A stretch of 45,622 bases of DNA. Source: Deltaproteobacteria bacterium. GTDB lineage: Bacteria > Desulfobacterota > Desulfobacteria > Desulfobacterales > JAUWMJ01. The DNA lies in assembly GCA_030638575.1 (NCBI GenBank), contig DAOWEJ010000048.1, positions 1-45,622 on the forward strand, given 5' to 3'. Positions 36,995 to 39,677 of this stretch are shown piece by piece. A model generated the notes under the pieces. The model was not told the origin of the DNA and did no database searches. It worked only from the letters and a program-made list of their open reading frames with translations. Numbering within the stretch: position 1 is the stretch's first letter; every line of letters begins with the position of its first letter. The translations under genes were made by a program, and so were the position numbers.

Positions 36995-38077
36995 ATGTCA
37001 AGAAAAATAAAATCATCAATCATGACAGATAAAAAAAACAAACCGGACATTAAAGAATTAACACCCGATCAGCTCGCCTCGTGGCTTAAAGATATGGACA
37101 ATAAGCCTTATCGCTCGGCTCAAATCTTTAAATGGATCTACCTCCGGAAAGCTGATTCATTCAATGTAATGACCGATCTGAGCAAAGAGACTCGAGGTCT
37201 TCTTGATCTTAATTTTACTATAAAATGCCTTGAAAAAGTAGACATTAAAAAATCACAGGACGGCTCCATAAAATATCTTTTCAAGTTGGAAGATGGAAAC
37301 CATATCGAAAGCGTGCTGATCCCGGAAAAAAACTATTATACGCTCTGCATATCGAGCCAGGTCGGCTGTGCCCAGGGGTGCAGCTTCTGCCTTACCGCAA
37401 AAGACGGATTTATGCGCAATCTTACCAAAGGTGAAATTGTAAGCCAGGTGCGTGATATCAAAAACGATCTTAAAAGCAACAAACATCTGAAAAATATTGT
37501 CTTCATGGGGATGGGTGAGCCCCTGGCAAATTACAAAAACGTTGTTAAAGCCGTTAACACGATTATAGATAGCGATTTAGGACTTGGATTCTCAAGCCGC
37601 CGGGTAACTATCTCTACAGCCGGTCTGGTTCCAAGACTTTCGGACCTGGGCCGGGAGACAACAATAAACCTTGCAATATCCTTAAACGCTACAGAAAACA
37701 AAATGCGTAGTATGCTCATGCCTATAAATAAAAAATACTCAATAGAAAAACTGCTTGATGCCTGCCGAAATTTTCATCTTAAACCCCGCCAAAGAATTAC
37801 ATTCGAGTACATTCTTTTAAAAGGGATAAACGATTCTGCTGAAGATGCAAACCGTCTTGTTAAACTCCTCAGGCCTATCAAGGCAAAAATAAATCTTATA
37901 CCCTTTAATGAATACGATGGGAGCAGTTTTAGACGGCCTGAAGAATCGGTTATTAATCATTTCCTTGAAATTTTACACAGAAACAATTATACGGCCATTA
38001 TTCGCCACAGCAAAGGGCAAGATATATGTGCTGCATGCGGCCAGCTCAGGGCGAAAGTTGGAGCGGATTCTTTTTGA
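36995..38077 (+). CDS. rlmN: Dual-specificity 23S rRNA A2503 / tRNA A37 methyltransferase RlmN
   Basis: The 360-aa radical-SAM enzyme has SSQVGCAQGCSFCLTAKDGF (CxxxCxxC cluster site), IVFMGMGEPLANYKNV, SSRRVTISTAGLVPRLSDLG and INLIPFNEYDGSSFRRP. The C-terminal GQDICAACGQL carries the methyl-carrying cysteine. The start may be ATG 36995 or ATG 37022 (MTDKKNK); neither has a clear RBS. It is divergent from ffh; the 90-bp region between them contains degenerate GGTTC-type repeats. The visible structure is complete. Confidence 0.94.
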   Translation: MSRKIKSSIMTDKKNKPDIKELTPDQLASWLKDMDNKPYRSAQIFKWIYLRKADSFNVMTDLSKETRGLLDLNFTIKCLEKVDIKKSQDGSIKYLFKLEDGNHIESVLIPEKNYYTLCISSQVGCAQGCSFCLTAKDGFMRNLTKGEIVSQVRDIKNDLKSNKHLKNIVFMGMGEPLANYKNVVKAVNTIIDSDLGLGFSSRRVTISTAGLVPRLSDLGRETTINLAISLNATENKMRSMLMPINKKYSIEKLLDACRNFHLKPRQRITFEYILLKGINDSAEDANRLVKLLRPIKAKINLIPFNEYDGSSFRRPEESVINHFLEILHRNNYTAIIRHSKGQDICAACGQLRAKVGADSF

Positions 38078-38093
38078 AGTGGCTCATATAGTT

Positions 38094-38434
38094 GAGGGAT
38101 CGGGGAGTTTCTCCCCTAAAGCCTTTTTGATGAACCGTTAGCGTTTTACTGATTGAGACCGGTCCGCCAGAGGAATAAACCCATAGCCCGTGCAAGCATT
38201 AACAATATCATATGAGGACTTTTGTACGGCAGCCATCTCGCTGAGGTTGGATTTGACTCAGCCCCAGTAGACAGATTCTCACGGCGGCGGTGATCGTCTC
38301 TGCCTGTATTGGCTTCACGCAAAGGATAGGGGGGGCGTGTACAGAGTACTATTCTTATTTGTTAAGGCTTGCACGGGCTATGGGCTTATTCCTCTGGCAG
38401 ACAGAACAGAGATTGAAAAACTCCCCGACCCCTC
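38094..38434. repeat. Long-arm palindromic element of unknown type (about 340 bp) filling the 38078-38443 gap
   Basis: Nested inverted repeats are present. The outer arms GAGGGATCGGGGAGTTTCT (38094-38112) and AAAAACTCCCCGACCCCTC (about 38416-38434) match at 17 of 19. The inner arms span 38166-38205 and 38359-38398, 40 bp each with two mismatches (GCCAGAGGAATAAACCCATA is the start of the left arm). The 153-bp core has further stems: GCTGAG/CTCAGC with an 11-nt loop (about 38240-38262), and ACAGA...TCACGGCGGCGGTGA...TCTCTGCCTGT (about 38271-38307). There is no ORF. It is unrelated by eye to families A-E. It may be a foldback mobile element, a structured RNA, or both. Confidence 0.75.
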
Positions 38435-38443
38435 ATATAGTTA

Positions 38444-39439
38444 TTAAATCATGAGGTGCCTGACTTCCGAAGGCGCTGTTCCTATCACTTTGATAACTTC
38501 TTGCCCACCTGGTGCTGCAATCAAAACATCTGAGGGTATTGTGCCTTTTGATTTACTGTACCCGACGCATATTGATGCGGCCTGAATGATTACTTCTCTG
38601 ACGCCCCCGCTGGGTACCAGCGTAGTAGGACCCGGAAAACTTTTTACTTTAATAACTGTGTCTGCAGCCCGGTTATGATATTTTAGAATATTTTCATTAT
38701 CCTTTTTGGTTCGCCCCACTACTATTTTGGTCTTCCCGCTTAAGCGAAAATGACGACCGTATTTTAAAAGATGAAGTTCTTTTTCTGTATAGTTCTCCTG
38801 GTGCTTAAAAAGATCTTTTAGGCGGACTGAGAACTCCTTGTCGGTAAGCAGACAGCCACCGGCAGGTGCGGGATAATCCTTAATACCGAATTTTTTTGCC
38901 AGATCTATCTGAGGTTTACGGGATCTTCCTGAAATATTGAGCAAAAGTTCTCTTTTGACCAGACCCTGTTTTTCCGGAATTGTTTCAGGTAGCCTTTTTG
39001 CACATAAAGGACGTATAATTAAGCCGTCAAATCCTGAGTTTTTTTCAACATAACGAAGGGATGATTTTGTCTGGGACATGGGGCGCTGGCCGATAACTTC
39101 TCCGCTGAAAAGGAAATTAAAGCCTTTTTCCGGCATTATTTCTCCTGCATGTTTGAACATTAAAGCATGACAATCCATACAGGGGTTCATGTGCCGCCCC
39201 CAGCCACACGGGGGATCTTTGAGCATATCGAGATAGGATGCCGTAATATTCTTTATAGATAGAGGAATACCTGTTATTTGTGCTGCCTGACGGGCTTTTT
39301 CTGCAGAAAAAAATGGGGTTTCAAACGTGACCCATTCAACCTCTATACCCTGTTTGCGCAAAACAAGAGCAGACAGAATGCTGTCAAGGCCACCGGAACA
39401 AAGTCCTAAAGCTCGCACTTTCTTTGGTTGTAACTTCAT
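38444..39439 (-). CDS. PP-loop tRNA-thiolation-like protein (ThiI/MnmA-type domain plus C-terminal extension)
   Basis: The 331-aa protein begins KVRALGLCSGGLDSILSALV, a PP-loop (SGGLDS) ATP pyrophosphatase motif. It has NPCMDCHALMFKHAGEIM and PAPAGGCLLTDKEFS, cysteine motifs found in 2-thiouridylase-like proteins. The C-terminal 100 residues (HLLKYGRHFRLSGKTKIVVG ... PGPTTLVPSGG) resemble the NFACT-R/DUF814-type RNA-binding region. It probably adenylates a tRNA base for sulfur insertion, but the exact nucleoside cannot be told. It is a monocistronic minus-strand gene facing rlmN across the palindromic element. Confidence 0.8.
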   Translation of the reverse strand: MKLQPKKVRALGLCSGGLDSILSALVLRKQGIEVEWVTFETPFFSAEKARQAAQITGIPLSIKNITASYLDMLKDPPCGWGRHMNPCMDCHALMFKHAGEIMPEKGFNFLFSGEVIGQRPMSQTKSSLRYVEKNSGFDGLIIRPLCAKRLPETIPEKQGLVKRELLLNISGRSRKPQIDLAKKFGIKDYPAPAGGCLLTDKEFSVRLKDLFKHQENYTEKELHLLKYGRHFRLSGKTKIVVGRTKKDNENILKYHNRAADTVIKVKSFPGPTTLVPSGGVREVIIQAASICVGYSKSKGTIPSDVLIAAPGGQEVIKVIGTAPSEVRHLMI

Positions 39440-39465: not shown

Positions 39466-39511
39466 GATGAATTCGTAAAAAGTGTTTTCCTGACTTTTAC
39501 GAAACCGTCAA
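39466..39511. repeat. Small family A/B terminal-repeat remnant
   Basis: GATGAATTCGTAAAAAGTG and, 10 bp later, the inverted CTTTTACGAAACCGTC form a back-to-back pair of family ends with no interior. It looks like an internally deleted copy lying 4 bp from intact copy B5. Confidence 0.65.
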
Positions 39512-39515
39512 TCTT

Positions 39516-39677
39516 GATGAACTCGTAAAAAGTCTTTGAATAAGCGCCGGATGGCTAAGTAAAAAGGCTCATATACAAGGCGTAGTGGTTTTTCAGGGAC
39601 GAGACTATACGATATAGTATGTCGAGTTCCTGAAAAACCGCTACAACGCAGTAGATGAGTCTTTTTACGACGCCATC
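39516..39677. mobile_element. Repeat family B, copy B5 (uninterrupted reference copy)
   Basis: Starts GATGAACTCGTAAAAAGTC and ends ACTTTTTACGACGCCATC-like. The interior pair GTAGTGGTTTTTCAGG and CCTGAAAAACCGCTAC is an internal hairpin. Alignment with 18781-19118 shows exactly where C2 inserted in that copy. It lies 5 bp downstream of the DUF3617 gene's stop. Confidence 0.88.

Follow-up and report, generated by a model that had tools for sequence, protein, structure and literature searches.

The window, i.e. the whole stretch of 45,622 nucleotides that was analysed, contains at 38093-38435 a 343-bp element built like a non-autonomous DNA transposon (MITE). It lies in the spacer between rlmN and the PP-loop gene, which converge, and is flanked on both sides by TATAGT, an exact 6-bp target duplication. 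The adjoining PP-loop protein (38447-39439, minus strand) combines a ThiI-like with an NFACT-R_2 domain; just past its gene, at 39470-39560, lies a repeated GTAAAAAGTC-type stretch, by eye unrelated to the element. A preliminary description of this DNA had reported nested inverted repeats around a core at 38206-38358, and these were found in that place: the inner arms of 44 nt are 93% complementary and separated by 153 nt, while the outer arms (38093-38113 and 38415-38435, 21 nt) are 90% complementary. The strong structure that it had claimed is equally apparent, RNA folding of 38078-38443 giving z-scores of -6.8 on the plus strand and -12.4 on the minus strand, with none of 100 shuffles as low on either strand. 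In line with the reported lack of a reading frame in the core, the list of ORFs of at least 100 aa holds none inside the element. The core strand of the element reads CAGCCCC...CTGCCTGT...GGGGGCG, and the single parts are arranged as follows.

38087-38092, no strand: left target-site duplication, TATAGT, same as 38436-38441
38093-38110, plus strand: left terminal inverted repeat, TGAGGGATCGGGGAGTTT, one mismatch to the consensus, same ends on the partner IS
38111-38161, no strand: left outer segment, asymmetric, which sets the orientation of the element (16-copy alignment)
38162-38205, plus strand: left inner arm, 44 nt (inverted-repeat search)
38206-38358, plus strand: conserved core of 153 nt, which in this copy has the 'direct' orientation (copy alignment and covariance-model matches)
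38228-38232, plus strand: 5' side of core helix H2, GGCAG
38261-38265, plus strand: 5' side of core helix H4, GCCCC, crossing H2
38300-38304, plus strand: 3' side of core helix H2, CTGCC
38332-38336, plus strand: 3' side of core helix H4, GGGGC
38359-38402, minus strand: right inner arm, 44 nt (inverted-repeat search)
38403-38417, no strand: right outer segment (16-copy alignment)
38418-38435, minus strand: right terminal inverted repeat, TGAGGGGTCGGGGAGTTT on the minus strand, no mismatches
38436-38441, no strand: right target-site duplication, TATAGT (duplication analysis)

A BLAST search of the window's own genome (G000; 2.31 Mb, 76% complete) yielded 43 matches, which resolve into 16 full copies, that of the window included, and one truncated right end. 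Further copies, which the preliminary description had proposed to look for, are hence present, and since 16 full copies occur in the same genome the feature is not a product of chance. Alignment of the 16 copies gives the ends TGAGGGGTCGGGGAGTTT and asymmetric outer segments. With up to three mismatches, the end sequence matches the genome 32 times, compared to 9 times for a reversed control pattern. Exact 6-bp duplications are found at the nominal edges of 11 of the 16 copies, in L008 and L011 the duplication becomes exact once the edges are shifted by one base, and three copies have none; as a control, left and right flanks taken from different copies agree in at least five of six positions in 25 of 240 pairs. 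The duplicated 6-bp targets are A/T-rich. In G002, a genome of the same genus, rlmN and the PP-loop gene are also convergent with a different spacer, in which no such element is seen by eye; an element search of the G002 contig carrying both genes gave no match, and a true empty site was not found. With its terminal inverted repeats, target duplications, short length without transposase, dispersed copies and ends in common with an autonomous IS, the element is a MITE.

Those ends (TGAGGGGTCGGGGAGTTTT) are also borne by an IS class of about 1.14 kb with a two-frame transposase-like gene. A genome scan for the end sequence returned at least 116 stretches, in Desulfobacterales, Omnitrophota, Sumerlaeota, Phycisphaerae, Patescibacteria and others. 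At locus L203, two such ends lie 1,128 bp apart around two overlapping frames, the longer of which matches PF13751 (7e-5) and NF033551 (3.5e-5) weakly, in both cases below the curated cut-offs. Relatives of this longer frame occur in 22 of the 389 genomes searched from the order. Among five near-full-length transposase matches, L227-L229 are bounded by two ends at a distance of 1,142-1,154 bp; L230 and L231 show a single end. The 6-bp duplication is exact in L228, agrees in five of six positions in L229 and is lacking in L227 and L203. The two overlapping frames are seen in the IS copies at 6747-7874 of L203, where a stretch of about eight A lies at the overlap, and at 433-1574 of L229; the long frame B recurs with the same extent in L227-L231, with one stop within L231. 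The two overlapping frames together with the recurrent long frame B suggest that the transposase may be made by programmed frameshifting or transcriptional slippage. A fold predicted for frame B had a mean pLDDT of 36, a very low confidence, and was not used. Like the IS5/IS1182-type systems, the partner combines a DDE-type transposase with an IS of about 1.1 kb; it differs from them in scoring below the cut-offs, in its two overlapping frames and in its 6-bp duplications.

The transposase of this partner IS, a weak DDE-family match, would have moved the 343-bp MITE. No match to it was obtained in G000, at 76% completeness, or in the genus mates G001 and G002; plasmids gave none either, and in viral contigs two pattern matches to the partner protein included no relative. 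The proposal of a foldback transposable element was right in kind, the element being a MITE with nested inverted repeats and a transposase-bearing IS sharing its ends. As to the alternative that it is a remnant of a known insertion sequence, the terminal ends do match a transposase-bearing IS; identity between MITE and partner is limited to 17-33 terminal bases, other matches being at chance level. In another genome with such ends (G067, L058-L087), all 12 single-ended MITEs that were looked at contain N scaffold gaps, which indicates that these repeats break assemblies.

The interior of the element is a module consisting of two inverted arms of about 40 bp and a core of about 150 nt between them. 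With R1, a covariance model built on the core, 14 of 389 genomes from the order give a match; with a second model, R2, 17 of 340 from the class and 7 of 395 from the phylum do so. These samples partly coincide and contain the window's own genome, and copy numbers are minimum values, taken from the best-scored matches per genome. The core could be aligned for 95 sequences from 23 genomes, leaving out the partial or weak matches of G005, G076 and G142. It is enclosed by arms of unrelated sequence and lies in MITEs whose ends are unrelated and whose duplications differ (6 bp; TA; about 8 bp), and the module occurs in other families of the same phylum. Class B elements (G126) have the ends TTACTCCGGCAA, and 13 of 14, with or without the module, are flanked by TA at either side; the same genome also holds 89-bp class B forms without it, and several short forms retain, by eye, arm pieces only, as deletions within a hairpin would leave. 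In class E (G517), the arms directly abut the ends GTAACTTCTCA, and at the best-fitting length of 8 bp the flanks of six copies agree in 8, 7, 7, 6, 5 and 2 positions. A further end class, GAGAGCTTTGCATAA, is seen by eye on some copies only in G113, G198, G222 and G231, without resolved duplications, and another on two copies in G152. The TA duplication would presumably suit IS630/mariner-type transposition, and GTAA with an 8-bp duplication, as we assume, IS66-type transposition. R1 found no core in 100 examined loci with class A ends (of at least 116 with the end sequence), and MITEs of class A are thus often without the module.

This distribution bears on two other explanations. A single MITE lineage could have carried arms and core throughout, its end classes arising by divergence or end recombination, so that the module never moved between transposon types. 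MITEs can exchange ends through nested insertion, which counts for such a lineage; duplications of 6, 2 and about 8 bp, however, lead one to expect different transposases, and we regard this history as improbable. Alternatively, the core might be the remnant of a transposase or another gene that decayed within an ordinary deletion-derivative MITE, an idea that fits deletion as the usual origin of bacterial MITEs in the part of PMC10969869 available. However, the outer segments match the partner IS over 17-33 terminal bases only, the core accompanies several unrelated end classes, no open frame runs through it when the sequence is read by eye, and it is better conserved than the arms, which makes this origin very improbable indeed. 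The latter difference was found in six of six comparisons: between G000 and G026, identity amounts to 0.70 for the core vs 0.60 and 0.62 for the arms, and within G026 to only 0.86 vs 0.85.

The surroundings of the distant copies show no common gene. Ten proteins adjoining six distant loci are mutually unrelated (transporters, MetK, RpoD, FtsK, a phage-type integrase and others), and no neighbour gene is common to the copies among them. HNH or TnpB genes were not found among these ten proteins. As to the linked transposase or HNH protein that the preliminary description had proposed to look for, the ends match a transposase-bearing IS class, G000 gave no transposase match, and no HNH gene lies among the ten neighbours. 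A pattern search for the core in viral contigs gave two stretches, neither recognised by the core model, and a 35-base plasmid match in two Entomospira records was judged to be chance.

The arms combine a fairly constant length with a changing sequence. Among 77 elements, arm lengths are 37-46 bp in 61, 21-36 bp in 13, and 3, 6 and 14 bp in the remaining three; distant elements have arms of up to 49 and 66 bp. Between classes the arm sequences look unrelated, and in distant families (L376-L381, L314, L316) arms have, by eye, common words like GGGG(A/G)TCTCTTTT, perhaps an older conserved arm part. In 74 of the 77, the arms reach 20 bp or more; pooled, these elements give 2,785 Watson-Crick pairs vs 113 mismatches (43 A-C, 29 G-U, 41 other), i.e. 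the arms stay almost fully complementary although their sequence turns over.

In addition, the core is found either way round. Judged against the outer segments, direct vs inverted cores number 6/10 in G000, 11/6 in G001, 0/1 in G002 and 1/4 in G026 (assigned by reading). On a quick tree of the 39 elements from these four genomes, orientation changes at least 7 times, 6 changes being forced by starred branches, compared to a mean of 13.0 for shuffled labels; within this one class, the core has flipped against its flanks at least 6-7 times. Orientations assigned by reading are also mixed in class B (7 vs 6, one unclear, n = 14) and in class C (4 vs 4 among the 8 of 19 elements that could be classed). 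As in a site-specific invertible switch, both orientations are found in close relatives; as regards the arm sites and a recombinase for such a switch, arm sequence is not conserved between classes, and a single phage-type integrase was noted close to one of the distant copies.

Template switching between inverted repeats leads to arm homogenisation and spacer inversion, as described in the available part of PMC8604942. By the same route, polymerase template switching between the arms could keep them complementary during sequence turnover and flip the core, and the short derivatives would be deletions inside the hairpin. Plain homologous recombination is another possible route to arm homogenisation and core flips. 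The module resembles the template-switch systems in both of these effects and differs from those in the same part of PMC8604942 in that their inverted spacers are far shorter and differ by few bases, whereas here a conserved core of about 150 nt is turned.

Within the core, the conserved helices H2 (GGCAG:CTGCC) and H4 (GCCCC:GGGGC) cross, and both are paired in 97-99% of cells (61 rows). Among 8,809 pairs of five-base blocks, 6 reach 90% pairing, and of these H2 alone also has two double-change columns. In the 95-row alignment, which was made with a model lacking H2, 80 rows read GGCAG:CTGCC, 6 are double-changed and paired, 3 contain a wobble and 6 are broken. The double changes come from four genomes (G222, G073, G113 and G421) and comprise GGCGG:CCGCC (L263, L298, L311), GGCGC:GCGCC (L291) and GGCAC:GTGCC (L388, L389). 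Double-change cells number 7 vs a shuffled mean of 0.4, with none of 500 shuffles as high. Two of the five covariation measures are weak in the shuffle test, namely pairs with a double change (2 vs 0.4; 19 of 500 as high) and further pair types (7 vs 6.3; 145 of 500 as high). For H4 there is no double change, and its G-run could alternatively pair with UGCCU. Another candidate helix, formed by columns 37-40 and 158-161, was dropped with only 84% of its cells paired, and in mutual information over 77 cores shared ancestry dominates except at the arm tips. In L212 and L218, the AGC-N6-GCT hairpin beside H2 is swapped for a different hairpin (TCCG...CGGA).

The core is kept while arms, ends and flanks are exchanged, from which we infer that it has a function of its own. 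Taken together, we consider it probable that the separable hairpin module carried by the MITE at 38093-38435 has a core that acts in its own right, most likely as a folded nucleic acid, in which the long arm helix would close the pseudoknotted core. Judged from the sequences, the likeliest reading, which we hold tentatively, is that the core is a structured RNA cargo. The preliminary description had considered a non-coding RNA tied to a mobile element; conservation of the core across unrelated MITE classes and the covarying helix agree with this idea, the RNA itself being hypothetical.

A known RNA family was not found: neither the window nor 9 distant loci gave an Rfam match at gathering score, no family reached E<=1 at 6 more loci, and a permissive search of the window copy gave two matches (E 3.5 and 6.2), nothing credible. 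A bidirectional terminator that became mobile, also proposed earlier, found no backing, as there are no terminator-like sites in 38000-38520 in a scan that detects loops of 3-8 bases and is silent on the long hairpin. One promoter-like match lies across the right end of the window copy, where shuffles give 0.5. A promoter at a fixed position outside would transcribe either strand, given that the core flips between its flanks. As a structured RNA tied to mobile DNA, the module would resemble the HEARO and IscB-type omega RNA elements, which likewise have many copies without a protein gene. It differs from them in its terminal inverted repeats and target duplications, in giving no Rfam match and in having no HNH-type gene among the neighbours examined.

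The second-likeliest reading is that the core is a DNA or single-stranded-DNA site aiding spread or replication. Hereby, a protein of the host or of the element would recognise a cruciform or single-stranded hairpin, and the core would be kept as copies with it spread better, the arms serving to extrude or stabilise the hairpin. A selected RNA helix is expected to tolerate G-U pairs, yet the arms show no excess of G-U over A-C, and mismatch cells in H2 and H4 (hand count) are 7 G-U vs 6 A-C. The lack of an excess in arms and core helices therefore does not favour RNA and makes a DNA-level role conceivable. Also in line with a DNA site, arms keep to 37-46 bp in 61 of 77 elements despite unrelated sequence between classes, and several short derivatives resemble, by eye, deletions inside arms as single-stranded DNA hairpins would give. 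Against it, class A and class B MITEs without the module exist, so that the module is not needed for movement, and crossing helices are commoner in RNA. On balance we regard a DNA-level site as rather unlikely. The fullest version of our proposal, put forward with reserve, comprises an undescribed module, either a structured RNA or a folded single strand of DNA. Its arm helix (about 40 bp) would be made anew by template switching, its core (about 150 nt) would form a pseudoknot, and it would have spread through the phylum in MITEs mobilised by transposases of at least three unrelated kinds.

The way in which the MITE moves is already known in kind, while an invertible, conserved hairpin module is without description in the databases and papers searched. 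Titles and abstract openings of the papers searched contained no description of an arm-core-inverted arm module, and the word MITE is absent from the available part of the Desulfobacterium autotrophicum genome paper (PMC2702500). The closest comparison is Chunjie of Geobacter uraniireducens, a bacterial MITE of 178-235 bp, which according to the available part of PMC10969869 is likewise short, non-coding and mostly intergenic, with terminal inverted repeats, direct target repeats and many copies. The difference lies in the interior, which here is a conserved invertible hairpin module common to several unrelated MITE classes. MITEs are commonly regarded as empty deletion derivatives. That unrelated MITE classes contain the same conserved folded module suggests that selection acts on the cargo and not on the transposon. 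An RNA core would represent a new class with a built-in means of jumping and flipping; a core acting as a DNA site would show how small elements persist with the help of hairpins. In either case, the elements constitute a natural set for measuring template switching across a spacer of about 150 nt.
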